Below, piece after piece: positions 4,110 to 35,981 of a DNA stretch of 35,981 bases; within the stretch, counting starts at the first letter, position 1, and each line of letters begins with the position of its first letter. A program made the position numbers and the translations under genes. The notes beneath the pieces are model-generated. The model ran no database searches and was not told where the DNA came from. It saw nothing but the letters and a program-made list of their open reading frames with translations. Source of the stretch: Coriobacteriaceae bacterium (lineage in GTDB: Bacteria; Actinomycetota; Coriobacteriia; Coriobacteriales; Coriobacteriaceae); NCBI GenBank assembly GCA_902363875.1, contig CABJBO010000023.1:1-35981 (forward strand), read 5' to 3'.

Positions 4110-4616
4110 ATGTCCCTGGAGCGCCTGGGGGTAGGTACTTACAAAACGACTTGCGCTGCCGATACGGAGTACTTTGGCGAGCTAATTGCACCGTGCCTTG
4201 AGGACGGAGATGTGCTCATCCTGACCGGTGGCCTGGGAGTGGGCAAAACTCACTTTACCAAGGGCGTCTCGCGCGGGCTGGGCGATGGGCATATGGTTAC
4301 GAGTCCTACGTTTGCGCTCATGGCCGTTCACGATCAAGGTCGTATTCCGCTGTTTCACTTTGATCTATACCGCCTGGAGCATGCCTACGAGCTCGAGGAT
4401 ACGGGCATTTTCGATGTGCTGGGCTATGAGGGTGCTTGCCTGCTGGAATGGGGCGAACAATTCCAGGACGAGCTGACGGATGAGTATCTTTCGGTGACGC
4501 TCAGGCGTGATGAGGGCGACAGCGATGTGCGAACGATAACGCTTGAGGCGCACGGTGACCGCGCAATGGAGCTTTCCCATTTGATTGATAAGGCTGTACA
4601 AGATGAGCTTGCATAA
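4110..4616 (+). CDS. tsaE: tRNA threonylcarbamoyladenosine biosynthesis ATPase TsaE
   Basis: TsaE is the ATPase that drives turnover of the TsaB-TsaD complex making t6A at position 37 of ANN-decoding tRNAs. The P-loop GGLGVGKTHFTKG, switch-like SPTFALM and the HFDLYRLEH segment typical of TsaE are present, and the length (168 aa) is normal. The ribosome site AAGGAG (4099-4104) sits just before the ATG. Its end overlaps the next gene, which encodes the TsaB and TsaD partners, so all three t6A proteins are made from adjacent, coupled frames. Confidence 0.94.
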   Translation: MSLERLGVGTYKTTCAADTEYFGELIAPCLEDGDVLILTGGLGVGKTHFTKGVSRGLGDGHMVTSPTFALMAVHDQGRIPLFHFDLYRLEHAYELEDTGIFDVLGYEGACLLEWGEQFQDELTDEYLSVTLRRDEGDSDVRTITLEAHGDRAMELSHLIDKAVQDELA

Positions 4617-6987
4617 CGACAACGCGCTGGTGGTGGCGCTCGATACCTCGACCGACATGCTTGCCTGCGCGGCAAGCTGGATTGATGGGCAGACGGGTGA
4701 GACGAAGCTCGTGAGTGGCGACCACATGTGTCGCCGTCACGCCAACGTTGAGCTCGTGAATACCGTTGATGGCGTGCTGGCTCAAGCCGGTCTGGATCGC
4801 AGCGATGTTGGTTGCTATGTGGTCGGCCGCGGCCCGGGGTCCTTTACGGGTGTGCGCATCGGCATCTCCACTGCCAAGGGCCTCGCGCGTGGTGCCAATG
4901 TTCCGCTGCTGGGCGTGTCGACGCTCGACGCTTGCGCTTGGACGGCGTGGAAGGCTGGCGTGCGCGGCAAGCTTGGTATCTTGGCCGATGCTATGCGCGG
5001 TGAGGTATATCCGGCGCTGTATATGCTGGTCGATGAGGGTCCCGAGCGTCAATTTGAGCGCGAACACGTGGTCAAGGCCGCCGTGGCGCTCGATGAGTGG
5101 CGCCAAGCAGCGGACTGGGGCCAGGTTCAGCTGACCGGTGACGGTCTCGTGCGCTATGGCAAGCTGCTGGGTGAGGACGAGGCCGCCCGCTGCGTGGAGC
5201 GCGACCTGTGGTGGCCTTCGGGCGAGGGCTTGCTGCTCGCGCACGCTGCGGGTGACGGCGATCCGGCCCGCGTCCTGCCGATTTACACGCGCCTTTCGGA
5301 TGCCGAGGAAAACGAGCGCAAGCGTCTTGGTCTTGCCGAGAGTGCGCAGAGCGAAATTACGGGTGTTGCCGATGAGCTCGCCGGTCGTCATCTGCAGTTC
5401 CGTCCCATGGGCGCGGCGGATGCCGAGGGCGCGAGCGCGCTGGAGGCTGCCTGCTTTGAAGGTGCCGGACACGAGACATGGACGCCGGGCATGTTCCTGT
5501 CCGAACTGGGCGAGGACGTCGCTGCGCCGCGTAGTTGGTGGGTGGCACACGACGACGGCAAGCTGCTGGGCCTTGCCGGCGGTATGGTCGTGGACGGTGA
5601 TGTGCAGATTCTGGATGTCGCCGTCGACCCGGCACATCGCCGTGAGGGCATTGCCCGCAAGCTGCTGTCGCACGTGAGCTATGATGCCCAGATGCTCGGC
5701 TGCACCACGGCTTCGCTCGAGGTCGAGGACGGTAACGAGGGAGCGATCGCGCTTTATAACGCTCTGGGCTTTACCGAGGCTGGCCGTCGCCGCGGCTACT
5801 ATGGTGCCGGCAAGGACGCCATCGTCATGACGGCTCCGCTGCCCCTGGTGCTTCCGGTCGACAATGCTTCGCCCGAGCCGACGGCGGCAGAGCAGCGCGT
5901 ATGGCCGCTGCCTGCGCCTGGGCGCTCCGAGGGGGAGCGTGCCGAAATTGAGCGCCGCCGCCTAGTGCTCGCTATCGAGAGTTCCTGCGACGAGACGGCC
6001 GTGGCGATTATCGATGCGGATGGCAATATGCTGGCCAACCAGGTGTCGACACAGATTGATTTTCATGCCCGCTTTGGCGGCGTGGTGCCCGAGATCGCCT
6101 CGCGCAAACACGTTGAGGTGATTGTGAGTGTCGTGGATGCGGCGCTCGAGGATGCCGCAGCATCGCTTGGTCTTGAGGGTGGAGCCATCGCGCCGAGCGA
6201 ACTCGCCGCTGTTGGCGTGACACAGGGTCCGGGCCTGGTGGGTGCTCTGGTAGTGGGCGTCGCCTTCGCCAAGGGCTTTGCCTATGCCGCCGGTAAACCG
6301 CTCGTGTGCGTCAACCATCTGGAGGGCCATCTGTTCGCCAATCTGCTGGCGCAGCCCGATCTCAGGCCGCCGTTTATCTTCACGCTCGTCTCGGGCGGTC
6401 ATACCATGCTCGTGCACGTGAAGGCATGGGGCGACTACGAGGTACTTGGTGAGACACTCGACGATGCTGTGGGCGAGGCCTTCGACAAGGTAGCCAAGGC
6501 GTTGGGTCTGGGCTATCCCGGTGGCCCCATCATCTCCAAGCTGGCCGAGACGGGCAACCCCAAGGCGATCGATTTTCCTCGCGCGCTTAACAGCAGGGGA
6601 GACTATCGTTTCTCGCTTTCGGGTCTTAAAACGGCCGTGACGCTCTACATCGAGCAGGAGACCAAGGCCGGGCGCACGATTCACCTGCCCGATCTGGCGG
6701 CTTCGTTTGAGGCAGCCGTCTTTGACGTTCAGTACAAGAAGGCCAAAAACGCCCTGCATGCCACCGGATGCAAGGAATACTGCATCGGCGGCGGCGTCTC
6801 GGCTAATCCGCATCTGCGCGAGATGATGATCAAGAAGCTTGGGCGTCAGGGGATCCGCGTGACGGTACCGCCGCTTTCGGCGTGCACCGATAACGCTGCC
6901 ATGATCGCGGAGGTCGCCCGCCGTAAATTCGACCGAGGTGAAATCTCGCCGTTCGACGTCGACGCCGATCCAAACATGACGCTGTAG
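4603..6987 (+). CDS. TsaB-RimI-TsaD triple fusion
   Basis: One 794-residue protein joins three enzymes that are usually separate. Residues about 1-230 are TsaB (VALDTSTDMLACA, GPGSFTGVRIG). Residues about 264-410 are a RimI-type GNAT acetyltransferase (VAVDPAHRREGIARKLL, the acetyl-CoA loop). After a Pro/Glu-rich linker, residues 454-794 are TsaD (LAIESSCDET, the metal pair in HLEGH at 572-576, SGGHT, GEAFDKVAKALG, DNAAM). TsaB and TsaD form the complex that transfers threonylcarbamoyl to tRNA A37; RimI acetylates the N-terminus of ribosomal protein S18 in E. coli. ATG 4603 overlaps the end of tsaE by 14 nt; an upstream TTG at 4585 is less likely. All active-site motifs look intact. A fold-back repeat follows 12 nt after the stop. 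Confidence 0.93.
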   Translation: MSLHNDNALVVALDTSTDMLACAASWIDGQTGETKLVSGDHMCRRHANVELVNTVDGVLAQAGLDRSDVGCYVVGRGPGSFTGVRIGISTAKGLARGANVPLLGVSTLDACAWTAWKAGVRGKLGILADAMRGEVYPALYMLVDEGPERQFEREHVVKAAVALDEWRQAADWGQVQLTGDGLVRYGKLLGEDEAARCVERDLWWPSGEGLLLAHAAGDGDPARVLPIYTRLSDAEENERKRLGLAESAQSEITGVADELAGRHLQFRPMGAADAEGASALEAACFEGAGHETWTPGMFLSELGEDVAAPRSWWVAHDDGKLLGLAGGMVVDGDVQILDVAVDPAHRREGIARKLLSHVSYDAQMLGCTTASLEVEDGNEGAIALYNALGFTEAGRRRGYYGAGKDAIVMTAPLPLVLPVDNASPEPTAAEQRVWPLPAPGRSEGERAEIERRRLVLAIESSCDETAVAIIDADGNMLANQVSTQIDFHARFGGVVPEIASRKHVEVIVSVVDAALEDAAASLGLEGGAIAPSELAAVGVTQGPGLVGALVVGVAFAKGFAYAAGKPLVCVNHLEGHLFANLLAQPDLRPPFIFTLVSGGHTMLVHVKAWGDYEVLGETLDDAVGEAFDKVAKALGLGYPGGPIISKLAETGNPKAIDFPRALNSRGDYRFSLSGLKTAVTLYIEQETKAGRTIHLPDLAASFEAAVFDVQYKKAKNALHATGCKEYCIGGGVSANPHLREMMIKKLGRQGIRVTVPPLSACTDNAAMIAEVARRKFDRGEISPFDVDADPNMTL

Positions 6988-7664: not shown

Positions 7665-9554
7665 ATGAACGGAGTTTTGCTCATGGTTGTGGCCGCGGCG
7701 GTGCTCGCCTGCGGCTATCTGGGCTACGGCCGCTGGCTGGCCAACAAGTGGGGCGTTGACAAAGAGGCCCTCACGCCGGCCAAGCGCATGAAGGACGGCA
7801 AGAGCTTCTCACCCGTCTCCGCCTTTACCGCGTTCTCGCACCAGTTCAGCTCGATCTGCGGTGCTGGCCCTGTCACGGGTACGATCGTCGCCATGGCCTT
7901 TGGCTGGCTGCCCGTCGTGCTCTGGGTCCTCGTCGGCGGCATCTTCTTTGGCGCCGTCCACGACTTTGGTGCTCTGTATGCTTCGATGAAGAACAACGGC
8001 AAGTCCCTGGCTCAGCTCATCGAGAAGTACATCGGCAAGACCGGCCGTCGCCTGTTCCTGCTGTTCTGCTGGCTGTTCTGCATCATCGTCATCGCCGCCT
8101 TCACCGACATGGTCTGCAAGACGTTCATGTTCACCCCGGCCGTTGACGCTTCTGGTGCTGCTACCGGTGCCATCGACTTCACCAAGTCCTATGCCGCCGG
8201 CTGCGCTGGTACCATCTCCATCCTGTTCACCTTCGTCGCTATCGCCTTTGGTTGGGCCCAGAAGAAGTTCAACCTCACCGGTGCTACCGAGTTCGTCACC
8301 GGCGTGGTCCTCATGGTTCTCATGTTTGCCGTCGGTATGCAGTTCCCGGTCTACCTGGATAAGTTCCAGTGGTTCGCCGTCGTCATGGTCTACCTGGTCT
8401 TCGCTGGCGCTATGCCCATCCAGATGCTCAAGACCCCGCGTGACTACCTCACTTCCATCATGATGATCGTCATGATCGTTTGCGCTGTCCTCGGTATCGT
8501 CGTCCTGGGTGTTAACGGCCAGGCCACCATCACCGCTCCGGCCTTTACCGGCTTCTCCAGCGCTTCTGGCATGATGTTCCCGGTCCTGTTTGTTTCCGTT
8601 GCCTGCGGTGCCCTCTCCGGCTTCCACAGCCTCGTTTCTTCTGGTACCTCCTCCAAGCAGGTCGAGAAGGAGCAGGACGCCGTCAAGGTCGGTTATGGCG
8701 CCATGATCGTCGAGTCCTTCGTCGGCATCCTTGCCATCATCGTCGCCGGCATCATGTTCTCCGACATGAACACCGCCGGTACCGGCGCCCTCAACGCCGG
8801 CGTCGCTTCCACCCCGTTCCAGATCTTCGCCGCTGGTATCTCCCGCGGTATGCAGGCCTTCGGTGTTGACGGTACGTTCGCTACCGTCTTCATGACCATG
8901 AACGTTTCCGCTCTGGCCCTGACCTCGCTCGACGCCGTCGCCCGCATCGCCCGCACCTCGTTCTCCGAGTTCTTTGCCCAGACCAACGACGCCCTGGCCA
9001 TCGAGTCCAAGGCCGGCTACATGAAGGTTCTCGGCAACCCCTGGTTCGCCACGGTCGTCACCCTGCTTCCCGGTCTCGCCCTCGCCTTTGGCGGCTATGC
9101 CAACATCTGGCCGCTCTTTGGTGCTTCCAACCAGCTGCTCGGCGGTATGACCATGATTACCCTCGCCGTGTTCTGCAAGTGCACCGGCCGCAAGGGCTGG
9201 ATGCTCTACGTGCCCGTCGCCTTCCTGCTCTGCTGCACCTTCACCTCGCTGGTCCAGAGCGCCATGGGCTGCATGACCGCTGTCCAGGCTTACGGCTTCT
9301 TCGGCACCATCCCGGCTACCGCCACCACGGCCGCCGTCTCCGTCGCCGCCACCAAGGGCCTGCAGCTCGTTTTCGCCGTCCTGCTGATGGTCCTGGGCCT
9401 CATCGTTGCCGTCAACTGTCTCAAGGAGTTCTTCGGCAAGGAGGCCGGCTCCATGCCCGACGAGGAGCCCGAGTGGTCCGAGATGGGCAAGGCCGAGTAC
9501 GGTCGCGCCGCTGCCGCTGAAGCTCCTGCCGACGCCGAGGCCGCCAAGGCCTAG
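7665..9554 (+). CDS. cstA: CstA-family transporter (carbon starvation / peptide-pyruvate permease)
   Basis: This is a polytopic inner-membrane transporter of the CstA family, whose studied members import pyruvate or peptides under carbon limitation. The N-terminal CstA signature runs from residue ~10 (GYLGYGRWLANKW) through SPVSAFTAFSHQFSSICGAGPVTG and the AVHDFGALY segment. Many hydrophobic segments follow, with the conserved FHSLVSSGTSSKQ loop in the middle and ANIWPLFGASNQLLGG near the end. Length 629 aa is close to the family range. The last ~40 residues are acidic and alanine-rich. AGAGGAGG (7651-7658) precedes the ATG. Codon use is strongly C-biased, suggesting high expression. The leader carries an Ile/Val-rich attenuator, so branched-chain amino acid or peptide supply is a plausible signal. 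The transported substrate is not shown by the sequence. Confidence 0.92.
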   Translation: MNGVLLMVVAAAVLACGYLGYGRWLANKWGVDKEALTPAKRMKDGKSFSPVSAFTAFSHQFSSICGAGPVTGTIVAMAFGWLPVVLWVLVGGIFFGAVHDFGALYASMKNNGKSLAQLIEKYIGKTGRRLFLLFCWLFCIIVIAAFTDMVCKTFMFTPAVDASGAATGAIDFTKSYAAGCAGTISILFTFVAIAFGWAQKKFNLTGATEFVTGVVLMVLMFAVGMQFPVYLDKFQWFAVVMVYLVFAGAMPIQMLKTPRDYLTSIMMIVMIVCAVLGIVVLGVNGQATITAPAFTGFSSASGMMFPVLFVSVACGALSGFHSLVSSGTSSKQVEKEQDAVKVGYGAMIVESFVGILAIIVAGIMFSDMNTAGTGALNAGVASTPFQIFAAGISRGMQAFGVDGTFATVFMTMNVSALALTSLDAVARIARTSFSEFFAQTNDALAIESKAGYMKVLGNPWFATVVTLLPGLALAFGGYANIWPLFGASNQLLGGMTMITLAVFCKCTGRKGWMLYVPVAFLLCCTFTSLVQSAMGCMTAVQAYGFFGTIPATATTAAVSVAATKGLQLVFAVLLMVLGLIVAVNCLKEFFGKEAGSMPDEEPEWSEMGKAEYGRAAAAEAPADAEAAKA

Positions 9555-25690: not shown

Positions 25691-27196
25691 CTATTGGGGA
25701 AGCTCAATTTCGTCTTCCGACGGGATGCGGAAGTAGGTCTCGGTCCAGCCGGTGAGCTTGTGCTCGAGCTCGCGGGTGATGGCGCCATCGAGCATGCGCC
25801 AGGTCCAGTTGCCGCCCATGGTGGCGGGAGTGTTGATGCGCGCCTCGTTGCCCAGGTTGAGCAGGTCCTGCATGGTGTAGATGCAGGTATCGCTTACGCT
25901 GGCGGCGATGGCGCGGTTGAGTGCATCGGCCATGGGCTCGCCTGCCTGCTGGTGGGTGTACAGGGCCGCCTGCTCGCGCTGACGCGGGGTGGCCGTTCCC
26001 TCAAACCAACCGCGCGCCGTCTCGTTGTCGTGTGTGCCCACATAGGCGACGGTGTTGGCAATGTAGTTGTGCGGCAGGTAGTACGAGTTGGTGCCCTCAA
26101 AGGCGAACTGCAAGATCTTCATGCCGGGGAAGCCCGAGTTGTCGCGCATGTCGATGACGCCGGGGGTGAGGAAGCCCAGGTCTTCGGCGATGATGGGCAG
26201 CGTGCCGAGCTTTTCCTCGAGCGTCTTGAAGAACTTGAGGCCGGGGCCCTGCGTCCACGAACCGTAGGACGAATCGGGTGAGGAGAACGGCACCTCCCAA
26301 TAGGCCTCGAAGCCGCGGAAGTGATCCAGGCGGATGACATCGTACATGTCGAGGGCGGCGCGGATACGGCCCTCCCACCAGGAGAAACCGTCGGCTTCCA
26401 TGGCGTCCCAGTCGTAGATGGGATTGCCCCAGTACTGGCCGGTGGCCGAGAACTGGTCGGGCGGCGTGCCGGCGACACTCACAGGATTACCGGCGGCGTC
26501 GATCTTAAAGAGCTCGGGCGTGGCCCACATCTCGACGGAGTCGCGCGAGACATAGATGGGCAGGTCGCCGATGATGAGGATATCGCGCTCGTTGGCATAG
26601 GCCTTGAGGCGGCTCCACTGACGATTGAAGAAGTACTGCGTCATCTGGTGGTAGAGCATGCGCGCGGGATGGGCGGCGCAGACCTTGGCAGAAGCCTCGC
26701 CGCGGGTACGGAGCTCTGCGGGCCACTCCCAAAAGGCCTTGAGACCGCACTCCTCCTTGACGGTCATGAACTCGCAGTAGGGGATGAGCCAGTCTTCGTT
26801 TGCTTGGACAAAGTCGTCGAAGTCGGCCGGCTTGTCGGCGGCAAAGCGCTCGGCGGCGCGGTCGAGAATCTGACGACGGCCACCAAAGATGGCACCATAG
26901 TCGACATTGCTGGGGTCGGAGCCCAGGTACACGCCGTCGATATCGCACTGCTCCAGATAGCCGGCCTCGATAAGCTCGGCAAAGTCGATGAAATTGGGGT
27001 TGCCCGCACGGGCCGAGAACGACTGATAGGGCGAGTCGCCATAGCTCGTTGTCGTAAGGGGGAGAATCTGCCAGTAATGTTGTTTGCACGAGGCGAGGAA
27101 ATCGACAAAGTCATAGGCGTTCCAGCCAAAGCCGCCGATACCGTAAGGTCCGGGCAATGACGAAACGGGCATCAGAACGCCGCTTGCACGCTCCAT
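25691..27196 (-). CDS. malQ: 4-alpha-glucanotransferase (amylomaltase)
   Basis: A GH77 enzyme that moves glucan segments between maltodextrins, releasing glucose and making longer chains for phosphorylase. The family start MERASGVLMPVSSLPGPYGIG is plain. Catalytic landmarks follow: IRLDHFRGFEAYWEVP (nucleophile Asp), IIAEDLGFLTP (acid/base Glu), and YVGTHDNETARGW (third acidic residue). The frame stays open to 27268, but a -10 box at 27282-27287 would leave almost no leader there. ATG 27196, with an upstream AAAGGACGGTGAG, matches where the family begins. Length is then 501 aa, typical for bacterial amylomaltase. 128 nt separate it from glgP; the two are probably co-transcribed. Confidence 0.94.
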   Translation of the reverse strand: MERASGVLMPVSSLPGPYGIGGFGWNAYDFVDFLASCKQHYWQILPLTTTSYGDSPYQSFSARAGNPNFIDFAELIEAGYLEQCDIDGVYLGSDPSNVDYGAIFGGRRQILDRAAERFAADKPADFDDFVQANEDWLIPYCEFMTVKEECGLKAFWEWPAELRTRGEASAKVCAAHPARMLYHQMTQYFFNRQWSRLKAYANERDILIIGDLPIYVSRDSVEMWATPELFKIDAAGNPVSVAGTPPDQFSATGQYWGNPIYDWDAMEADGFSWWEGRIRAALDMYDVIRLDHFRGFEAYWEVPFSSPDSSYGSWTQGPGLKFFKTLEEKLGTLPIIAEDLGFLTPGVIDMRDNSGFPGMKILQFAFEGTNSYYLPHNYIANTVAYVGTHDNETARGWFEGTATPRQREQAALYTHQQAGEPMADALNRAIAASVSDTCIYTMQDLLNLGNEARINTPATMGGNWTWRMLDGAITRELEHKLTGWTETYFRIPSEDEIELPQ

Positions 27197-27281
27197 GGAT
27201 GCACTCACCGTCCTTTTGAATAAGGGGCTGCGCCGTAGATGGATAGACGGCTCGTCCCGAGTTTCCATTGCTATTGTCCCT

Positions 27282-27306
27282 ATTGTAGAACATGTTGTTT
27301 AAACAT
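27282..27306 (-). promoter_or_regulatory. malQ promoter with overlapping operator
   Basis: On the minus strand TACAAT (27282-27287) is a good -10 box. Immediately upstream lies TTGTTTAAACAT (27295-27306), differing from the shared palindrome at one position. It sits inside a longer inverted repeat ACATGTT-GTTTA-AACATGT (about 27290-27308). The palindrome would cover the -10/-35 spacer, as expected for repression. No good -35 box is seen. Confidence 0.6.
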
Positions 27307-27511
27307 GTATAGAGAGAATGAAAAAGTTGCCGACTTTCGGTGAATGGTAGTGCGCCATAGACGATATGAGTTGAACATTGGGAGCTCCTCCCCTTGCGGC
27401 TCTTTTGTGGGTCGGGCGACAATGGTCGTCGTCATTAAAGACCGGCTGCCAGCCAGGTTGCAACAATGCAAGAAGGGTTCACATTCAGTTGGCCGTTGAC
27501 ACAAACAATCG

Positions 27512-27778
27512 CGCGAAGACCTCGTCTTCTTCGGTAAGTCCAGGCGCGGCAAGACGCGCATGGCAGTCGCCCTCACGATGCGCGCGGTCGCCGCGGACAT
27601 GTCGGTCAGGTTCTGGCAGACCGCGCAGCTGGTTCTCGAGCTCGGCAACGCGAAGCGCAAGGGAACGCTGTCGAAACTGTTGAACGACGTGTCGCCCGCG
27701 AGGCTGCTCGTGCTCGACGAGTTCGTCTACGTCCCCTGCGACGTAGACGGTGCGAGGGTTCTCTACCAGGTCATTTCC
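27512..27778 (+). pseudogene. IstB (IS21-type helper ATPase) fragment
   Basis: An open stretch encodes about 89 residues resembling the middle of IstB. It has a P-loop FFGKSRRGKTRMAVAL, VRFWQTAQLVLEL, then Walker B ARLLVLDEFVYVPCD and ending GARVLYQVIS, where IstB proteins have GA-LLFQVIS. The N-terminal ~90 and C-terminal ~60 residues are missing. The match stops abruptly where the IS110 fragment begins, so this is a truncated relic. Confidence 0.75.
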
Positions 27779-28140
27779 GTCCATGTAGTGCTCGTAGGCC
27801 GCGGCGTCGTCGGGCTCGTCGAAGGAGAGGGACTCCGTCCAGTCCCAGTAGGCCCCCGTCCAGGCGCCCCTGCGCCTGCCGGCCGGCGTCGTCTCGTCGA
27901 AGACGAGGCCGTGGCGCAGCAGGAACTTCGACATCCGCTGCTTGGCGTGTTGCAGGTCGTCGCGCGCGTCCTCGAGGGCGCTCGTCGGGGACCCACACCT
28001 CGACGACGTTGCGGCGCGCCAGCATGCGTGCCAGCCACTCGGCGTGCGGCGGTCGTTCTTGCGGCCGCGGTCGGCCGCGGGCCGGTGCATCTTCGGGACC
28101 GCCCCGACGACGCAGCCGAGGCCGAGGGCCCGCAGCGCGC
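27779..28140 (-). pseudogene. IS110-family transposase fragment, frameshifted
   Basis: On the minus strand, pieces typical of IS110 transposases occur in two frames. VGAVPKMHRPAADRGRKNDRR lies in one, EWLARMLARRNVVEVWVPDE in another. ALEDARDDLQHAKQRMSKFLLRHGLVF and WTGAYWDWTESLSFDEP follow in the first frame. At least two frameshifts are needed to join them, and both the DEDD N-terminus and the C-terminal Ser domain are missing. Non-functional. Confidence 0.72.
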
Positions 28141-28225
28141 GGCCGCGGTTGATGGTACGACCATTGTCGCCCGACCCACGAGAGAGCTGCAAGGGGAGAG
28201 GCCCCAATGTTCAACTCATATCGTC

Positions 28226-28479
28226 TGTTGTGCCAGAGTCGCTCGGGAAAGCGCGACCGACGCAGCGCGCTGTTTTCCAGTCACATCCAGTTCGGGTTGA
28301 TTTCAGCATGCGATAAGAAACTGGATTTGAATTTCGACTCGAAAGATGGGCAATGCTGATGAGAAACGCTTGGAGTTCGGGATTGCGCGGCGTGAAGCGA
28401 CCCTCTTCTTATCGAGTTCGTTACAATGTAGGAAAAACAGTAAGTAAGAAGACCTCTGATTGCTTTAGGAGGAGCTGTG
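28226..28479. other. Gap between the mobile relic and the DUF2975 gene
   Basis: No gene recognised. TACAAT (28422-28427) before GTAGG is a possible -10 box for the DUF2975-XRE pair, 52 nt before the start codon. No clear -35 box pairs with it. Confidence 0.4.
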
Positions 28480-29016
28480 GTGAATAGCGCCCAGAAGATC
28501 GATAAGTCCATCCAGAAGATGATGACTCTCGGAAGAAGGCTTGGGATTCTGTTTACGGCGCTGTTTATAGCGGTGTGTTGCTGTTCGGTGGTGGTGGTTA
28601 TTTCCATTGGGCTTATGGCTGCTCAAGGAAACCTATATGATCCATCAAAGACGGTTTCCGTAGTGGTTCCTTTGATGTATCTTCTGATTTCCGGAGGGGC
28701 CACATGGACCCTGCGGGGAATCAGCATGGACATGGCTCATGGCGAATCGCCCTTTACCCTTTCGCATGCTCGAAGAATCTCGATTATCGGGTGGCTGTTT
28801 GTTGCAGCGGCAATAGGTGACCTCTTGTTTTCTCCGGGGTTTCTTTCGATAGTGATTGGCCCCTTCGACTTGCTGGGGAACGCCTATTCGATGTTTGAAA
28901 ACCTGGCCCTGCCCATAGATATTGGTGCTGTGCTGGGGGCCGTTTGCTGCTTCTCGATTTCTGCGATATGGCGCTACGGAGCTCTGCTTCAAGACCAGAC
29001 CGAGGATTTGGTGTGA
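28480..29016 (+). CDS. DUF2975-type membrane protein
   Basis: A 178-residue protein with four hydrophobic segments (about residues 20-45, 60-75, 100-125 and 140-165). A short amphipathic N-terminus holds KIDKSIQKMMTLGRRLG. The layout, with WTLRGISMDMAHGESPFTLSHARRI between segments 2 and 3, matches DUF2975 proteins, which are often coded beside a small XRE regulator, as here. Function is unknown; a role in sensing or self-protection is a guess. Two adjacent GTG codons exist; the second (28480) is better spaced from AGGAGGAG (28468-28474). Next gene starts 8 nt after the stop. Confidence 0.65.
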   Translation: MNSAQKIDKSIQKMMTLGRRLGILFTALFIAVCCCSVVVVISIGLMAAQGNLYDPSKTVSVVVPLMYLLISGGATWTLRGISMDMAHGESPFTLSHARRISIIGWLFVAAAIGDLLFSPGFLSIVIGPFDLLGNAYSMFENLALPIDIGAVLGAVCCFSISAIWRYGALLQDQTEDLV

Positions 29017-29024
29017 GGGGCGGC

Positions 29025-29354
29025 ATGGACTATCTGATTATTGAGCTTGAAAGCTTATTGCTTCGACGCGGAAAGACGAGTACGGATATCATTCGGGCGA
29101 CCGGGCACACACCGGCAAGTATCTCAAAAATACGAAATGGCAAGGTGAAGGCAATTAGGTTAAAGACATTGCTGGATATTTGCGTAGAGCTTGATTGCCA
29201 GCCTGGCGATCTTATTAAGCGCGTCAACGAAAGAGAACTTGAGGAACTGGCGACGCGGCGCGCCCGCAACGCGCTGAGCAGGGCGACCGCGACGGGTGAT
29301 GACCCGGTCCTGGAGTCAGATCATGTTTACGTGGTCGATCTTAGAGACGACTGA
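29025..29354 (+). CDS. Small XRE/Cro-type helix-turn-helix regulator
   Basis: 109 residues. Positions ~1-65 form an HTH of the YozG/Cro type: LESLLLRRGKTSTDIIRATGHTPASISKIRNGKVKAIRLKTLLDICVELDCQPGDLI, where the recognition helix is near SISKIRNGK. The tail is charged. ATG 29025 follows GAGGGGCGG; the longer upstream frame overlaps DUF2975 and is not needed. The pair DUF2975-XRE sits just before the peptide gene cluster and could control it through the inverted repeat at 29551-29586, but that link is inference. Confidence 0.8.
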   Translation: MDYLIIELESLLLRRGKTSTDIIRATGHTPASISKIRNGKVKAIRLKTLLDICVELDCQPGDLIKRVNERELEELATRRARNALSRATATGDDPVLESDHVYVVDLRDD

Positions 29355-29385
29355 GGCTGGAGAATAAAAAAGTATTGAGCAGGTG

Positions 29386-29420
29386 CAGCCCGTGAAAACA
29401 ACGGTTTTCACGGGCTGTTC
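29386..29420 (+). terminator. Terminator after the XRE gene
   Basis: CAGCCCGTGAAAAC (29386-29399) pairs with GTTTTCACGGGCTG (29404-29417) over a 4-nt loop. The T run after it is poor (TTC ATTC), but the stem is 14 bp and perfect. Confidence 0.75.
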
Positions 29421-29537
29421 ATTCAACGTCCTGCAGTGGCCTGTATTTCTCGCCGCGTCACTGGGGAACGAGAGAGTCATTTCCTGTGCTGGATGCAGGG
29501 GGGTGCTTACCTTGTGTAATATATAAATAAGCTTATA

Positions 29538-29566
29538 TTGAAATATGATACATATCGAATTAGAAT
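29538..29566 (+). promoter_or_regulatory. Promoter of the precursor-peptide operon
   Basis: TTGAAA (29538-29543), exactly 17 nt, TAGAAT (29561-29566) in a very AT-rich stretch: the best promoter in the window. The precursor ATG lies 39 nt past the -10 box. Upstream, ATAAGCTTAT (about 29527-29536) is a perfect palindrome. Confidence 0.8.
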
Positions 29567-29586
29567 AACATTATCAATTCGGTATG
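29551..29586. promoter_or_regulatory. Inverted repeat across the -10 box (candidate operator)
   Basis: CATATCGAATT (29551-29561) and AATTCGGTATG (29576-29586) are complementary over 11 bp with one mismatch, and enclose the -10 box and start-site region. The position fits a repressor site. Confidence 0.5.
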
Positions 29587-29604
29587 CAAGGAAAGGAGGG
29601 AGAG

Positions 29605-29724
29605 ATGGATTGGATTAACGAGCCGGAGGAAGGCGTTGCACCCGCGTGCGGCAACTGCTTCTTCTACGCGCACGGGGGATGCACGAAGAGGTGCCCCAAT
29701 CAGTCCTGCACGTTCCGTTTCTAG
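29605..29724 (+). CDS. Cys-rich precursor peptide A (39 aa)
   Basis: A 39-residue peptide too short for routine gene calling. It opens MDWINEPEEG, has cysteines at 15, 18, 26, 30 and 35 (C-x2-C-x7-C-x3-C-x4-C), holds NCFFYAHG at 17-24 and ends CTFRF. GAAAGGAGGG is 4-5 nt before the ATG. Peptide B downstream shares 23 of 39 residues, including all cysteines, so selection acts on the protein. With a radical SAM/SPASM maturase and exporters behind it, it is best read as a RiPP substrate: residues ~1-13 leader-like, ~14-39 core. Cys residues would be thioether donors. It recalls short Cys-rich substrates of CcpM-type maturases, without a proven match. Confidence 0.85.
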   Translation: MDWINEPEEGVAPACGNCFFYAHGGCTKRCPNQSCTFRF

Positions 29725-29733
29725 GGGGCAGAG

Positions 29734-29769
29734 ATGAACTGGCTTTCTACCGCGAAAGGAGGGGAATGA
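29734..29769 (+). CDS. 11-codon frame MNWLSTAKGGE between the two precursors
   Basis: It starts MNWL, echoing MDWI and MEWI of the two precursors, behind AGGGGGCAGAG, and ends one base before the ATG of precursor B. The ribosome site of precursor B lies inside it. It may be the stump of a third precursor, a translational coupler, or chance. Confidence 0.35.
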   Translation: MNWLSTAKGGE

Positions 29770-29770
29770 A

Positions 29771-29890
29771 ATGGAATGGATTACCGAGCCGTCAGCCGGG
29801 GCTGAGCCCATGTGCAGCAATTGCTTCTTTTACGCGCACGGCAGCTGCAGCACCAAGTGTTCTTCACAGGAGTGCACTATCCGCTTTTAG
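29771..29890 (+). CDS. Cys-rich precursor peptide B (39 aa)
   Basis: A paralogue of precursor A with identical length and identical cysteine positions (15, 18, 26, 30, 35). It opens MEWITEPSAG, keeps NCFFYAHG at 17-24 and ends CTIRF. The ribosome site AAAGGAGGGG is 6 nt before the ATG. Variable residues cluster at 8-14, 25-34 and 37, as in two-peptide or diversified bacteriocins. Stop is followed at once by a small hairpin and a perfect palindrome, which may keep precursor mRNA in excess over the downstream genes. Confidence 0.85.
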   Translation: MEWITEPSAGAEPMCSNCFFYAHGSCSTKCSSQECTIRF

Positions 29891-29916
29891 CGGATAGCGC
29901 ACGCCGTACGGCGTGC
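29879..29916 (+). promoter_or_regulatory. Tandem hairpins after the precursor genes
   Basis: ATCCGC-TTTTA-GCGGAT (29879-29895) includes the end of precursor B. It is followed by the 18-bp perfect palindrome GCACGCCGTACGGCGTGC (29899-29916). No T run follows, so partial read-through or mRNA protection is likely. Confidence 0.6.
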
Positions 29917-30055
29917 ACAGACTGTTCAAAGATATTTTGGCCAGCAGCGCCTGAGGGGCGATGTGGCATTGCAATATGGGGGGCGAACCGACGTTACCTA
30001 TAACCCCGCACAATTGCCATGTCGTCCCTTTTTATTGACGGGGAGGATGTCGTCC

Positions 30056-30975
30056 ATGCGGGAAGTCCCAGTTGAATTGCGTGCCATATCCAAGAGATAT
30101 GGCGGGTTTGAAGCGGTTAAATCAGTCTCGTTCTCTTTAATGGAAGGCGAGCTGTGTGCACTCATTGGGGAGAATGGTGCCGGCAAGAGCACGTTAATTC
30201 GATTGATCACGGGGCTTTCGGAGCCATCGTCAGGAACGATCTCGATGTTTGGGCAAACCGGGAGACGTGAAATACGGAGCTGCAGGGAAAGGCTGGGTTA
30301 TATGCCCGACCTCAATGCTTCGTATCCTAATCTGACCGCGCGAGACAACTTGGTCGTTCGCTGTATTGAGTGGGGCCTCCCACCGATCGTTCCATCGACG
30401 GTGTGTTATCAACCGTCGGTTTGGGGGAGGCCGGCGGGAAGAAAGTGAAGAACTTCTCAATGGGAATGAGGAGGCGTCTCGATCTGGCCATAGCGTTGCT
30501 GGGCGATCCGGAGCTGTTGATCCTGGACGAGCCGACAAACGGCCTGGATCCGATGGGGATAGTCGAAGTAAGAAAAATCCTTACGCATCTTAACAAAGAT
30601 CAAGGTAAAACGATTCTCGTATCCAGCCACAATCTTGAGGAGATGCACAAGCTGGCAACTGATTACCTCTTCATAAGTCATGGTCGCCTCATTCGAAGGA
30701 TGACCGCACCTCAGCTGGAAAAGTCATGCCGCGGTGGTTTCGTGTTGCATGTGGACGATCTGGAGCGAACGAGATCGGTTCTCGGAGATGAGACCTCACA
30801 TTCTTTTCTGCCGGACGGCAGCGTCCTTATGCGCTATGAGGAGAAAAAGGAAGGGCGGGGCATTGCAATCGAAGCGCTCTCGACCGCAGGTGTGAGGGTT
30901 GCGGAGGCGTATTCTCATAGGAAGAGCCTTGAGGAGTTTTATTCGGAGCTCATCGGTCGAGAGAGCGAGCTGTGA
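30056..30975 (+). CDS. ABC transporter ATPase (BcrA/LanF-like), two frames
   Basis: The ATPase of an efflux or immunity-type ABC transporter, split by one frame change. The first frame runs from ATG 30056 (GGGGAGG nine nt upstream): ELRAISKRYGGFEAVKSVSF, Walker A IGENGAGKST, then YMPDLNASYPNLTARDNL. Homology leaves this frame near 30375-30385. The second frame, to 30975, continues VGLGEAGGKKVKNFSMGMRRRLDLAIAL, Walker B LLILDEPTNGLDP, and H-loop SSHNLEEM. The first frame alone stops at 30448. A backward slip of one base at CTCCCACC (30377-30384) would restore one protein. This could be a disabling deletion, programmed slippage or a sequence error. The end overlaps the next permease by TGATG. 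Confidence 0.75.
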
Positions 30976-31793
30976 TGAAACGCGAGTTCATCTCAGCTTT
31001 TCGGAGCGAGGTATGGTTGCTCGCCAGGCACCCGGCGACCGCTCTGATGATTGCGCTTGCGGCTGTGCTGTATGTGGTTGCGGCTGCGACTTCGTCTGAG
31101 GTGCTGATCATGGTCGCCGGTGATGACCCGTATACGCTTGGAGGGGCTATAGGTTTTATTGGAAACCTAGTGGATGCAGGGGACGTTTTGGGCTCTGTTG
31201 CCCGGACGTCTTTTGCGTCTACAGTGGTCTGGATTCCGGTGACGATTCTCTACGCGGTTTACGCTACGTCGAGAGACTTTGAATCCGTGGCTTACGCCGT
31301 ATCGAGATCGCGAGGGGTGTCGCAGGCGGCGATTGTGATCACGAAGCTGTTGGTGAACTGCACTCTGGTCGGTGCCGTGTATCTTCTTTCTACGACTGCG
31401 CTGTATTTAACCAAGATGGCCCAATGGGACGTTGGGGCCTCGTGCTCAGGGTTTGCCCAATTTGTATCGATTGCGCTGATGATCGCGCTGCTGCTCATTT
31501 CGATGTACGCCGCTACCTTCGCCCTGTATTTGCTCACGAGGAGTGTGGTGGCGAGCAGCGTCGTTGCAATAGCGGTTTCGACATTTGTGATGGTGTGGTT
31601 CCCAAGTACATACGGAAGCGGTCAGCCCAGCTTGCTGCTCATGCTCTCGCCCGTGTATTACCTGATGAACCTGTGTTCCCTGAGTATGCAGAATGTTGGT
31701 GTAATTCAGGTTTTGCTGTATGCGGGCGGCACTGTGCTTGTGTCGGTTGGAGTTGCGCTCGTCTCGCTATTTGTAAGGACGGCGGTTCGATGA
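30975..31793 (+). CDS. ABC-2 type permease subunit 1
   Basis: A 272-residue membrane protein with six hydrophobic segments, the first at ~20-45 and the last near the C-terminus (VLVSVGVALVSLFV). The segment order and the small loop ATSRDFESVAYAVSRSRGVSQAAIVITKLLVN between segments 2 and 3 match ABC-2 transporters of bacteriocin-immunity type. It starts at ATG 30975, overlapping the ATPase stop. It is followed by a second permease with an ATGA overlap, so ATPase and both permeases form one translational unit. Probably expels the mature peptide from the producer; inferred from context. Confidence 0.75.
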   Translation: MKREFISAFRSEVWLLARHPATALMIALAAVLYVVAAATSSEVLIMVAGDDPYTLGGAIGFIGNLVDAGDVLGSVARTSFASTVVWIPVTILYAVYATSRDFESVAYAVSRSRGVSQAAIVITKLLVNCTLVGAVYLLSTTALYLTKMAQWDVGASCSGFAQFVSIALMIALLLISMYAATFALYLLTRSVVASSVVAIAVSTFVMVWFPSTYGSGQPSLLLMLSPVYYLMNLCSLSMQNVGVIQVLLYAGGTVLVSVGVALVSLFVRTAVR

Positions 31794-32578
31794 ATCTTGG
31801 GATGTCGGTCAGGGCGGAACTGTTCCGTGCAAGGAGAATGAAACTCGCCGTGATAATAGCGCTGATGTATTTGGGCATCGCGGGGATTTATGTGTTTGCC
31901 GGGTCCGGCGCATGGGTCTCCGCAGGGGGAGAGGGCCAGTTCTTTGGCTTTTCCGCCGATCCGGGCTATCTTTTCTCGATAGGGGTTGGGCCAACGGGTA
32001 TCTCTTCCTGGCTAAGTGTCGTCTCCATGGCGCATACGGTGTTCTTCCCAATCGTCTCTGTTGTTGTGGCGGGGACGCTATTCGGTGATGCGACGAGCGT
32101 GTCGGCAAGGGGAGTTTCGATTGCTCGGGGCTTCCGCAGCTGGCAGCTGTTTGCGGCAAAGACATTGGCTTGCGAAGTGTATACGCTGTGCCCCTACATC
32201 GTGTTTACTCTCGGTGTCGCTGCGGTCTTTGCCGTGTGCTCCGGAAGCGGTCTAGACAGCCTTACGGTTGGTAATGTGACCTCGGCACTCCTGTCGAATA
32301 TCGTTATAGACGCCGCTTATACGCTGATGGTTGCGGTTGCATATGAGGTGTTCAGGATCAGATCTCTTGTGTCGGGAGCCTTGCTGGTCGCAACGTTCGC
32401 GGGCCTTGTTATCGCGATGAGTTTCCCAACCGTTTTACCCCCGGTTCACATGGCTTATTGGATGAGGGCGTGCGGGGCTGCCGGCGGGACGGTCCTGATG
32501 GCTGCATGCGGCCATGCGGTCATCGTGTCGCTCGCATGTCTATTGCTGCTTTCGTGCAGTTTTTATCGAAGAAGGTAG
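31790..32578 (+). CDS. ABC-2 type permease subunit 2
   Basis: A 262-residue membrane protein with about six hydrophobic stretches, beginning MNLGMSVRAELFRARRMKLAVIIALMYLGIAGIYVFAG. The loop VSARGVSIARGFRSWQLFAAKTLACEVYTLCPYIVF is the counterpart of the loop in the first permease (short basic loop, then KTLA/KLLV). The first codon overlaps the preceding stop (ATGA). The two permeases resemble LanE/LanG pairs in arrangement only; individual sequence identity to those families cannot be shown here. Confidence 0.7.
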   Translation: MNLGMSVRAELFRARRMKLAVIIALMYLGIAGIYVFAGSGAWVSAGGEGQFFGFSADPGYLFSIGVGPTGISSWLSVVSMAHTVFFPIVSVVVAGTLFGDATSVSARGVSIARGFRSWQLFAAKTLACEVYTLCPYIVFTLGVAAVFAVCSGSGLDSLTVGNVTSALLSNIVIDAAYTLMVAVAYEVFRIRSLVSGALLVATFAGLVIAMSFPTVLPPVHMAYWMRACGAAGGTVLMAACGHAVIVSLACLLLLSCSFYRRR

Positions 32579-32644
32579 TGCGCTGGCGTATGCGCAGCGT
32601 CTGAGGGTCGATATGGATTTGGTTGGAAATGGAGATGGTGCGAA

Positions 32645-33943
32645 GTGAAACTGTCGCAATTTAATGTGGTGCATGAACATAACGGAAGTCTTCTTATCAT
32701 GAATGCGCGAACCGGCGGCATCCTGTCGTTAAATCCGGAATACGCGCAGAAATTCAAAAGGATTCAAGAAGGGGACGTTCGGGATGCCGATGATCTTGTC
32801 GCGGAGCTGATAAGGGGAGGCATCCTAGTCAATGAGGAGAGGGACGAGCTTGGGGAGATCAGGTTGCAAAGTCGCGCCGCGCGCTTTGCGAATACTGCTC
32901 TGTCCCTTACCATTGCGCCAACGATGGCTTGCAACTTTTGCTGTCCCTACTGCTATGAAAAGGGACAGGCGTACACGACGATGGGCGAGGAGGTTTTGAC
33001 ACAGCTCTCCAAGTTCGTGAAAGATTACTATCCTGGTATCGCAAGTCTCTCAGTTGGATGGTACGGCGGCGAGCCTCTGCTCGGAATGAAGATGATCGAA
33101 CGGATTACGTCGGATCTGAAAGATGTCGTGGGGCCAACGTGTGAATATTCCGCATCGATAGTGACAAATGGCTATCTGCTGACGCCTGATGTTGCAAGGA
33201 GGCTCGCGGCATGTGGTGTGACGAGCGCGCAAGTGACTATAGATGGATCGAAGTCGGATCACGATTCGAGAAGGATTCTTCACGACGGAAGCCCTACATA
33301 CGAACGTATTCTCAAGAACGTCAAAGAGTGTGCCGACATCATCGATATTTCGATAAGGAGCAACGTCGACAAGACCAACATCGAGGCCGCTCAAGAGCTA
33401 TTGGATTATCTCGAGCTAAATGGCCTGATGAATAAGGTTCACTTCTATTTAGCCCCTGTTGACGATATCAATCAGGTATGTGCGAACGACAGCCACTGCT
33501 TTACTGTAAAAGAGTTCTCGTATGAGGAGACTGAGTTTTCTAAAAGGGCAATTGCGCGGGGCTTCAAAGTTCAACCTTTTGGTGGGACGAATTTCGGGAT
33601 ATGTTGCGCCGTTGGAATCAACTCGTACGTGGTTGATCCCGTCGGAGATTTGTATAAGTGCTGGGATGACATTGGAATGAAGGAGCGGAGGGTCGGAACT
33701 ATTTTCGAGCCGCCAATGTTGAGCAAGAACATGATTAACTGGATGGCATATGAGCCGGATGACCCGGAATGCCAAGAGTGCTTTGCTTTTCCCATGTGCA
33801 TGGGAGGGTGCCCCAACCACGCCTTAAACGGTGAGGGGAAACGTTGCGTTTCCTTCCGGTATGATGCCGAGCAAAAAATGCTGCTCTCCCAGATGATGAA
33901 TACGGCAAAACGGGGTGCGGGGCAAAATGAGGCTGATGCTTAA
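32645..33943 (+). CDS. Radical SAM/SPASM peptide maturase
   Basis: A 432-residue maturase. Residues 1-85 are PqqD/RRE-like (FNVVHEHNGSLLIMNARTGGILSLNPEYAQKF), the usual peptide-recognition module. The radical SAM centre CNFCCPYC holds the three cluster cysteines in C-x3-C-x2-C spacing near residue 97, and GWYGGEPLLGMKMI is the SAM-binding GGEP motif. The C-terminal SPASM region has CCAVGINSYVVDPVGDLYKCWD, then CQECFAFPMCMGGC, giving cysteines for two auxiliary Fe-S clusters. Such enzymes make thioether (sactionine or ranthionine) or C-C links in RiPP cores. Start GTG 32645 has GGAG 10 nt upstream. Best functional partner: the two Cys-rich peptides upstream. Confidence 0.9.
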   Translation: MKLSQFNVVHEHNGSLLIMNARTGGILSLNPEYAQKFKRIQEGDVRDADDLVAELIRGGILVNEERDELGEIRLQSRAARFANTALSLTIAPTMACNFCCPYCYEKGQAYTTMGEEVLTQLSKFVKDYYPGIASLSVGWYGGEPLLGMKMIERITSDLKDVVGPTCEYSASIVTNGYLLTPDVARRLAACGVTSAQVTIDGSKSDHDSRRILHDGSPTYERILKNVKECADIIDISIRSNVDKTNIEAAQELLDYLELNGLMNKVHFYLAPVDDINQVCANDSHCFTVKEFSYEETEFSKRAIARGFKVQPFGGTNFGICCAVGINSYVVDPVGDLYKCWDDIGMKERRVGTIFEPPMLSKNMINWMAYEPDDPECQECFAFPMCMGGCPNHALNGEGKRCVSFRYDAEQKMLLSQMMNTAKRGAGQNEADA

Positions 33944-35561
33944 TCTCTGTAGAAAATATATACTGGGCGGTCGATTCTACGCCTATCTTGTCGTAACAGT
34001 TTTGGTCGGGCTGCTTGCGCTTGCGGGTCCCTTTCTTACCGGCATAGTGGTAAACCGATTGGCGATGCCGGCCAGCGCCGATCTTGCCGCCGTTCTCGTT
34101 TGTTGCCTTATTTTGGTTGCGGTCCAAGCGGTTCGAGCGGGACTAGTGTATTGCTCAGAGATGCTGTACATCAACCTTCAGTCGCATGCGGGGTTCGGCT
34201 TAAATGCGGATACGCTTGAGCACGTGAAGCACCTTCCCCAGGCATTCTTCGAGGGCTTCAACGCGTCGTATTATAACCAGCAAATCAATCACGACGCTAA
34301 TGACCTTGTCATCTTCGTAATCAACTCGGTTGTGGGGGTTTCAAGCAACGTTATCACCCTTTTGTCCGCCCTGTTTGTTCTCGGTAGCCTGAATATCAAG
34401 TTGAGTGTGGTCTGCCTTGTTCTTGCGGCAGCGAGTGCCGCTTTTTATGCGGTTTCACGCGCAAGGCTGTTTGAGAGAAGTTTTGACGTACAAGAGCAGA
34501 GCGCGAGGTTTTTTTCCTGTCTACAAGATCAGTTGGAGAAAGTTGATTTCATCCGCAAACATGCTTTGTTCGATAGGTCCCGCGCTGTACTGGTCGAAGC
34601 TTTTAATGGGCTCTATCCAACGATGAGAGCAAATCAGGAAGTAGGGTCTAGATTTACCTTTGGCAACGCGTTGGTCGCTTCCGCCGCTCAAGGATGTCTT
34701 CTTGCTGTGGGCGCGGTTGAAGTGATGGGCGGGAGACTGTTGCCTGGTTTTCTCGTGACTGCTGTTGGATATTATTCGAACTTAAGCTCAGCGGTACAGT
34801 ATTTGTTGGGCTGGGGAAGGGATTACCAGACTAATCGCGTATGCTATGAGCGGCTGAAAAGAATTTGGGATGTCCCGGTGGAAGCGAATGGCAAATTGGC
34901 GCTTGGTCCGATTGAGGAAATCCGTCTAGAGAACATCAAGCTACGTTATCCAGGGGCGGAAAGGGTCGCGTTAAGCATTGAGGGGCTCGCGTTTTCCAGG
35001 GGTCGGCTATATGGAATCTCGGGGCCGAATGGTTCGGGGAAGAGCTCGCTGCTGTCAGTGATATTGGGGCTATATCCAGATGACACAGAAGGGGCCGTTC
35101 GCTACAACGGGGTGTCACAGCGTTGCATCGATCGATATGCATTGCGGCGGTGTCGAGTCAGCATTACGGAGCAAGAACCCCCTATCGTTGAGGGGACGAT
35201 TCTCGATAATCTTACGCTGCTTTCTGATGATTACGAGATGGATAAGCTGAATCGGATGCTTGTCATATTGGGGCTAGACGAAATGGTTGCTTCTGTGGAG
35301 AACGGGGCAACGGCGATGCTTGACGGCGGGAAAGGAGGGGTGTCCGGCGGCGAGAAGCAAAAGATTGCAATTGTGAGACAGCTGTTGAAATCGCCGGACG
35401 TTATGCTTTTTGATGAACCGACCTCAGCACTTGATGCGAAGAGTCGAGGCGCGCTGATCAAATTGCTTCATGAAATTAAGAGAGACCATATTGTAATCGT
35501 TGTCACTCATGACGAGGAGATGCTTGCCGCCTGTGACGAGGTCATTTCGACGGCTGGATGA
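33927..35561 (+). CDS. ABC exporter (membrane and ATPase domains in one chain)
   Basis: A 544-residue half-transporter. Residues ~15-300 are six membrane helices. Residues ~330-544 form the ATPase with Walker A GISGPNGSGKSSLLSV, Q-loop ITEQEPPIVEGTI, signature GGVSGGEKQKIAIVRQ, Walker B VMLFDEPTSALD and H-loop VVTHDEE. No N-terminal C39 peptidase domain exists, so it can export the modified peptide but not cut the leader itself. ATG 33927 overlaps the maturase stop (33941-33943) by 17 nt, which favours coupled synthesis. Codon use with many AGG/AGA/ATA differs from the housekeeping block. Confidence 0.87.
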   Translation: MRLMLNLCRKYILGGRFYAYLVVTVLVGLLALAGPFLTGIVVNRLAMPASADLAAVLVCCLILVAVQAVRAGLVYCSEMLYINLQSHAGFGLNADTLEHVKHLPQAFFEGFNASYYNQQINHDANDLVIFVINSVVGVSSNVITLLSALFVLGSLNIKLSVVCLVLAAASAAFYAVSRARLFERSFDVQEQSARFFSCLQDQLEKVDFIRKHALFDRSRAVLVEAFNGLYPTMRANQEVGSRFTFGNALVASAAQGCLLAVGAVEVMGGRLLPGFLVTAVGYYSNLSSAVQYLLGWGRDYQTNRVCYERLKRIWDVPVEANGKLALGPIEEIRLENIKLRYPGAERVALSIEGLAFSRGRLYGISGPNGSGKSSLLSVILGLYPDDTEGAVRYNGVSQRCIDRYALRRCRVSITEQEPPIVEGTILDNLTLLSDDYEMDKLNRMLVILGLDEMVASVENGATAMLDGGKGGVSGGEKQKIAIVRQLLKSPDVMLFDEPTSALDAKSRGALIKLLHEIKRDHIVIVVTHDEEMLAACDEVISTAG

Positions 35562-35710
35562 TTATCGGATTGTGGCGTTGAAGACCAAGAAACTTGAAAT
35601 GGCGTGGGCTCTGGGTAGGTCTCCACGGGTACGCCGTCGGTGCTGTACTCGACCGCCCGGCAAGAAGGTTTTATAGCGTGTTTCCCCAGAGAGGTCCCTT
35701 TGTCCGGTAG
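35562..35710. other. Gap after the exporter, ending in a terminator
   Basis: No gene recognised. A stem AGAGAGG (35688-35694) pairs with CCTCTCT (35723-35729), CCCT/AGGG inside it, and TTTT follows. It is the likely terminator of the peptide operon, and overlaps the start of the next partial frame. Confidence 0.5.
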
Positions 35711-35981
35711 TGGCGAGGGGAGCCTCTCTTTTGCTCACCTCTTGCGGCGGAGGGGGACACCATGCGCCTATGCAGGACAAACTGCGCGTTCTTGTCGAAT
35801 GATGGGCTATGTGTAGAGATGATGGTCTCGGGTAGAGGCCGTGTCGCGCTCGGCTGCGATGAGCCAGGCAATTCAATCTTCATCCGGGAGGACCTTGGCA
35901 AGACAAGCAGGGCGAAGACCTTGGCGACGTTCGGGAGCCGTGTGGCGCCCGGCTCCACGCTCATCCACGACATGGAGCCGG
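35711..35981 (+). pseudogene. Partial transposase-like frame (IS1595/ISXO2-like), cut by window end
   Basis: An open frame from the stop at 35708 to the right edge, with the first ATG at 35762. Its last part, SGRGRVALGCDEPGNSIFI then TFGSRVAPGSTLIHDMEP, resembles the catalytic part of IS1595-family transposases (GSTLIHD-E motif). The zinc-ribbon N-terminus expected in that family is not visible, so the copy may be truncated or continue from elsewhere. Marks the right flank of the peptide cluster. The family assignment is tentative. Confidence 0.45.

Follow-up and report, generated by a model that had tools for sequence, protein, structure and literature searches.

A probable radical SAM peptide cassette with twin five-cysteine precursors, and related transporter-only loci, in Collinsella

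What do two small, cysteine-rich peptides encoded beside a radical S-adenosylmethionine (SAM) enzyme become, and is their cluster new? The question is raised by contig CABJBO010000023.1 of a Coriobacteriaceae bacterium (GCA_902363875.1), analysed over its whole 35,981-nt stretch (hereafter, the window). The DNA is Collinsella-like: 61% of sampled 31-mers are common with the nearest genome compared, and the closest named record is Collinsella sp. 4_8_47FAA. A preliminary description had proposed a new cluster for a ribosomally synthesized and post-translationally modified peptide (RiPP). By its gene content the cassette is a RiPP-type cluster, probably a radical SAM cassette of the Clo7bot/TIGR04463 kind that makes thioether peptides and carries its own exporter and self-immunity. 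What appears new is a clade-linked core motif in the precursors, not the type of leader, which recurs across phyla.

The twin peptides (precursor A, MDWINEPEEGVAPACGNCFFYAHGGCTKRCPNQSCTFRF; precursor B, MEWITEPSAGAEPMCSNCFFYAHGSCSTKCSSQECTIRF) were found as first described, 59% identical, with cysteines 15, 18, 26, 30 and 35 in each and all five aligned. A purine-rich site of ribosome-binding type precedes each gene. Codon positions 1, 2 and 3 agree in 32, 29 and 22 of 40 codons, the third being the most divergent, so the coding DNA appears to be under selection. Among the 26 start-defined open reading frames (ORFs) of the window with 25–60 aa and at least five cysteines, A and B are the sole non-nested pair with equal cysteine spacing. 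Neither matched NCBIfam or Pfam, and a database search with both returned 30 proteins, every one a form, fragment or read-on version of A or B. Public data also contain recombinants that join A's leader to B's core (e.g., P0126, found on 20 contigs), as though the two tandem genes were collapsing into a single copy; assembly collapse is possible too.

The gene order on the plus strand is membrane protein, HTH_26 regulator, A, B, ATPase, permease 1, permease 2, maturase and exporter (Table 1). All the genes expected downstream of the peptides are therefore present on one strand as described, but the cassette begins earlier than the peptides, at 28477, and includes the membrane-protein/helix-turn-helix (HTH) pair.

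Table 1 Features of the cassette in the window
Feature	Position	Strand	Details
Small membrane protein, 179 aa, first of regulator pair	28477-29016	+	No Pfam family above cut-off
HTH_26 (Cro/C1-type) regulator, 113 aa	29013-29354	+	Pfam PF13443, 61.7 bits
Strong hairpin between regulator and precursors	29383-29420	n/a	29380-29425 folds, z -6.8
Promoter-like TTGAAA-17-TAGAAT	29538-29566	+	Weak; 1 match vs 0.9 expected by chance
Precursor A	29605-29724	+	39 aa, 5 Cys, leader MDWINEP, C-terminal motif CTFRF
Precursor B	29771-29890	+	39 aa, 5 Cys, leader MEWITEP, C-terminal motif CTIRF
Two back-to-back hairpins at B stop codon	29877-29916	+	No T run; 29875-29960: -37.3 kcal/mol, z -3.55
ATPase of immunity-like ATP-binding cassette (ABC) transporter	30047-30975	+	Two overlapping frames, 29963-30448 and 30370-30975
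ABC permease 1, 273 aa	30972-31793	+	Weak relatives in other Collinsella clusters
ABC permease 2, 262 aa	31790-32578	+	Relative at same position in L023, 31% identity
Radical SAM/SPASM maturase, 432 aa, GTG start	32645-33943	+	RRE-like, radical SAM and SPASM parts
ABC exporter, membrane and ATPase domains fused	33915-35561	+	ABC_membrane, ABC_tran and overlapping P-loop matches (Pfam)

The maturase carries CX3CX2C at C96/C100/C103 and SPASM cysteines at 320, 339, 376, 379, 385, 389 and 401, in agreement with the CX3CX2C motif and seven SPASM cysteines that define the type. These ten positions are invariant or nearly so across the aligned relatives. Residues 1–85 match the RiPP recognition elements (RREs) of TbiB1, lasso B1, PbtF, TigE and MccB in predicted fold (Foldseek E at best 5.6e-3), supporting the RRE-like N-terminus suggested at the outset. 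The exporter gene follows the maturase gene in four related loci as well (L021, L022, L023 and L024), with 46–47% identity.

How far the precursor type extends was examined in 80 loci encoding maturase relatives, using a leader rule (M-x(0-1)-[WYF]-[IVLM]-x-[EKQRM]-P at the start, 25–80 aa, at least three cysteines). There were 49 leader-rule ORFs within 4 kb on the maturase strand, 3 on the opposite strand and 2 in 1,281,402 strand-bases farther out. Small ORFs are thus conserved beside homologous maturases, as the proposal of a peptide cluster had implied: 22 of the 80 loci have a leader-rule peptide, and 58 have none. The positive loci come from Collinsella, Lachnospiraceae, Peptostreptococcus, Clostridium, Fusobacterium, Aminicenantes, Wallbacteria, Mesoaciditogaceae and others, and their peptides have 3 to 9 cysteines, three being the minimum of the rule. 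Relaxed leaders occur in Collinsella (MNWVIDP, L023) and Blautia hansenii (MKWINKA, L033). A leader unique to the window cluster was accordingly rejected. The short leader had also been put forward as separating this cluster from the Clo7bot type; it does not, because the peptides of L066 and L051 that pass the Clo7bot peptide model TIGR04333 start MKYIVKP and MKYIVEP, and have their first cysteine at residue 16 (L066) or 9 (L051), so that the contrast fails on leader length and start. Trp versus Tyr/Phe at leader position 3 was considered as a clade marker and rejected (12 and 12 labelled rows, 5 changes, shuffles 8.3). Of 396 genomes of the class, 10 have maturase relatives at E ≤ 1e-70, and the system is therefore patchy. 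Maturases with 66–77% identity (P0002–P0015) are also encoded on metagenome contigs.

The part of the precursors that tends to follow the maturase phylogeny is the core. Two quick maturase trees were used, one of 79 rows and a second with ten rows added, both with Shimodaira–Hasegawa-like approximate likelihood ratio test (SH-aLRT) support only; L110 was not aligned, and L078, whose row had been read in a wrong frame, was left out of both. On the 79-row tree the window groups with two Collinsella rows (L031, L032) and one from Blautia (L033) with starred support, nested in a starred 14-row group including L034–L038, L040–L042, L047 and L050; the Clo7bot representative, L066, lies elsewhere with L051 and L055 as neighbours. 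What appears to be new is this maturase clade from Collinsella, Blautia and other gut Bacillota, with the putative precursor core motif C-x-hydrophobic-[RNQHK]-[FYLWTI], scored as C-x-[IVLFWM]-[RNQHK]-[FYLWTI]. The motif often forms the last five residues of the clade peptides. Besides CTFRF and CTIRF of the window, its forms include CLVNL (L022/L032), CVVNF (L030), CVIRY (L033), CYINY (L038) and CKIQT (L034), the L034 peptide repeating it as CGINI, CGIQI and CKIQT.

Among leader-rule peptides, the motif is present in 8 of 10 inside the clade versus 0 of 39 outside, and its copies number 13 inside (0.7 expected from shuffles) and 0 outside (2.3 expected); because the pattern was written after viewing 14 peptides (11 with the motif), many of which recur in these sets, the shuffle and Fisher values are inflated and the counts are a measure of consistency, not an independent test. 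A later sample of 15 stretches (13 new; L163 and L164 repeat L041 and L112) contained the motif in three. In L151 it occurs twice in one peptide (CYVKF and terminal CLVRF), and this locus falls inside the clade (17 rows, SH-aLRT 95). The motif was absent from the Clo7bot-like peptides of L152, L153, L154, L157 and L162 and from the peptides of L158–L160, and no peptide was seen in L150, L156, L163 and L164. Counting against a clade-specific motif, L155 (terminal CYVHF) and L161 (an internal copy) fall outside the clade on the second tree. L023 falls inside it on the same tree and lacks the motif. The pattern also misses natural L022 peptide variants in which +3 is Tyr (CVVYF, CGVYS). Given the later loci and L023, the motif is strongly enriched in the clade, neither universal there nor wholly confined to it. 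It may be a better candidate for the modified site than the leader, since every clade has the leader but not every clade has the core motif. A bolder proposal, which we hold only tentatively and regard as rather doubtful, is that the clade constitutes a separate RiPP class, which keeps the Clo7bot-type leader, acts on the motif as a distinct unit that can be repeated, joins the motif cysteine to residue +3 (or +4) and drives a polymorphism of producers and immune non-producers in Collinsella. If so, the thioether acceptors at +3 would be Arg, Asn, Gln, His or Lys, unlike the Asp/Glu acceptors of PapB (PMC9413430).

The second line of evidence comes from Collinsella loci that lack the peptide genes. 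The membrane-protein and HTH genes are adjacent 20 times in 19 of 65 Collinsella-family genomes, always paired, and HTH copies 63–68% identical stand at the related maturase clusters L021, L022, L023 and L030. Loci were read behind such regulator pairs (L020, L022–L024, L030, L031 and L113–L127). A full set was found in five (G001, G023, G013, G017 contig 62 and, on two contigs, G010). One locus (L119, from G037, a genome 72% complete whose contig spans the site) has the precursor and ABC genes without maturase or exporter. Eight have the ABC genes only (L115, L116, L118, L120, L121, L123, L124 and L117, which a contig end cuts). The remaining six (L113, L114, L122, L125, L126 and L127) have no precursor and at most distant ABC matches in the stretch fetched. 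Two of these six carry maturase sequence upstream of the regulator pair: in L114 (G064) a sequence there matches the N-terminus of the maturase (41% over residues 3–80), and in L127/L021 (G048) maturase and exporter stand there in the reverse of the usual order, with no precursor seen.

The seven fully seen ABC-only loci are ~91–96% identical in DNA to L022, from which they differ by two missing blocks. The precursor block is gone from the third codon to beyond the stop (junction +154/+313 from the HTH end in six, +153/+346 in L124); its start codon and the codon after it survive in the scar. The stretch from the maturase start to just beyond the exporter stop is missing at +2716/+5632 in all seven and in L119. 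Three features favour loss of production over late gain: the precursor junction is of two kinds, a start codon is left over, and L119 is intermediate. In trees of the two shared blocks, full loci are interspersed with ABC-only ones and the topologies partly disagree, so the forms have probably spread by recombination. All seven have open ABC frames apart from the L116 ATPase, which is shortened (220 of 241 aa), and permease 1 of L115 is one codon shorter. The median ratio of nonsynonymous to synonymous substitution (dN/dS), taken on same-length frames only, is 0.13 for the ATPase (six of seven loci, without L116), 0.28 for permease 1 (six, without L115), and 0.26, 0.29 and 0.035 for permease 2, membrane protein and HTH regulator (all seven).

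The transporter thus appears to be kept under selection without peptide, maturase and exporter, which fits self-immunity and speaks against its taking part in maturation or export. Self-immunity usually shows itself in this way, by a transporter retained after the producer genes have gone. The ABC genes probably confer self-immunity, an argument drawn from an L022-type relative (ATPase ~50% identical to the window's) and not from the window's own type. Consistent with the immunity-like transporter first described, both ATPase pieces of the window match ABC_tran (Pfam) and, under cut-off, the galliderm_ABC (lantibiotic protection) and drrA models; the genes are present, but the ATPase frame is not intact in the window. 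The permeases matched no Pfam family above cut-off. Relatives of permease 1 in other Collinsella clusters are 24–29% identical and occupy the same gene position where checked (L022, L023); for permease 2 the query was 31793–32575, first Met omitted. The same loci allow the reading that the peptides are quorum-sensing-like signals which the ABC transporter imports or senses, given the tight linkage of the regulator pair and its presence with the ABC module and no peptide in the eight loci. We consider this unlikely, since the ATPase resembles, under cut-off, lantibiotic-protection and drug-efflux ATPases and the transporter outlasts the producer genes. A bacteriocin role is what we infer from the immunity-only loci.

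The split ATPase may be a sequencing error or a real break; in two relatives 99% identical the ATPase is a single 309-aa frame. One observation from a close relative also points to decay: in G001 (L020, a 99% relative), the usual maturase start near 8490–8515 is out of frame and the open frame starts some residues later. Together with the A/B recombinants and the loss of producer genes from related loci, these defects would suit a once-active cluster now breaking down, the window ATPase included. Such decay seems improbable to us, because every other gene of the window set is open, the mapped ATPase and maturase frames of Collinsella sp. 4_8_47FAA (L031) are open, scaffold gap aside, and the A/B codon pattern shows selection. 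An apparent precursor–ATPase duplication in L031 abuts a run of N and was rejected as a scaffolding artefact.

Expression of the cassette was described as probably driven by a single strong promoter; this fared poorly, as it depends on one lone -35/-10-like match ahead of A, at chance level. The hairpin behind the HTH gene is perhaps the end of the regulator transcript; a terminator scan returned none, and a long T run is absent. The hairpins at the B stop codon are a possible processing or attenuation point between the precursors and the downstream genes, and it is a guess that they raise precursor over enzyme expression. An Rfam scan of 27000–35981 gave no match at gathering thresholds. The plasmid collection returned only one record for the cluster, from Collinsella aerofaciens (12% of the query, 83.9%, exporter end and beyond). 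Upstream of the regulator pair, an inverted repeat (arms within 27352–27429 and 28157–28233, 49 and 41 nt, 83–88% complementary, ~730–800 nt apart) flanks a stretch that is perhaps a small mobile element. Elsewhere in the window, 4585–6987 is a single 800-residue frame fusing a GNAT acetyltransferase domain with a TsaD domain.

In the mechanism that we propose, the RRE would grip the MxWIxEP leader as an added beta-strand, and the radical SAM cluster would generate a 5'-deoxyadenosyl radical, which would abstract hydrogen from an acceptor residue. A core cysteine would then close a thioether, with a loss of 2 Da each, probably guided by the SPASM cluster, and the core motif would mark one link site, C35 in both A and B. 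The exporter would secrete the product, and the leader would be removed by a protease outside the cluster, because none was found inside: no C39 peptidase domain is among the Pfam matches of the exporter, and no protease gene was recognised within the cassette. The ATPase and two permeases would make the producer immune to the peptide that it makes, with expression under control of the membrane/HTH pair. The product would most likely be an antibacterial peptide or peptide pair aimed at close relatives; both link chemistry and killing activity are inferred. The locus offers a compact test system of two 39-residue substrates, one enzyme, a common leader and a clade-linked motif predicting the link position, and loci with the transporter and without precursor and maturase are natural immunity controls in a common human gut genus. 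The motif and the immunity-only loci most deserve to be followed up; the status of a new RiPP class would depend on chemistry beyond the sequence.

Compared with known systems, the maturase scored best among named families against TIGR04463, a radical SAM/SPASM maturase family (308.3 bits, residues 6–412; cut-off 525), so the profile check suggested earlier gave a best family but reached no cut-off. Its best Foldseek match is CteB (residues 4–419). A maturase that makes C–C or other non-thioether links (cyclophane, epimerisation, oxidation), leaving the cysteines to disulfides or metal, is quite unlikely in our judgement. The fold is common to many chemistries, the YhhB and FxsB cyclophane models match too, far under cut-off, and the last residue of the core motif is aromatic or bulky; against this, the best-scoring families include maturases of cysteine-rich peptides (TIGR04463, Clo7bot), CteB leads the structural matches, and cysteine alone is invariant in the motif, position 37 being Ile in B and Phe in A. 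Thioethers run from cysteine to an alpha-carbon in sactipeptides and to a beta- or gamma-carbon in ranthipeptides. Of the ranthipeptide maturases, PapB yields freyrasin and CteB yields SCIFF/thermocellin. The PapB model covers residues 87–397 (122.4 bits; cut-off 340), and of PapB-type CX3D/E motifs A has none and B one CX3E, with none common to both. SCIFF peptides have six cysteines in ~45 residues, the window peptides five in 39, and the SCIFF model TIGR03974 gave 84.4 bits (cut-off 425). CcpM (TIGR04068) is alike in its cysteine-rich target and superfamily (79.3 bits; cut-off 500). As in RRE-dependent RiPPs generally, a precursor stands beside its modifying enzyme, conserved across genomes, and a PqqD-like RRE is predicted by fold only. 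As in orphan bacteriocin immunity loci, the transporter outlasts the production genes, here as read from the genomes of an L022-type Collinsella relative.

No title found on Collinsella radical SAM RiPPs, as far as the titles seen go, names this cluster. Because no paper naming Clo7bot, TIGR04463 or TIGR04334 was found, in a search outside which most subscription papers lay, the chemistry of the multi-phylum leader family appears open. The closest likeness is to Clo7bot (TIGR04333 peptides, TIGR04334 maturase), which has a similar short leader, M-x-aromatic-[IV]-x-[EK]-P, and the same RRE–radical SAM–SPASM type of maturase; the window enzyme is 34–35% identical to the L066 and L051 maturases on the Clo7bot side. 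Canonical Clo7bot identity was rejected, as TIGR04334 gave 273.8 bits for the window against a cut-off of 600 (L066, the positive control, 775.4; L051, 589.9) and TIGR04333 (cut-off 31 bits) found neither A nor B at E 10, compared with 47.9 bits for L066 and 40 for L051. The window cassette differs from Clo7bot in its place in another part of the tree, its twin precursors, Trp at position 3 and the C-terminal CTFRF/CTIRF.

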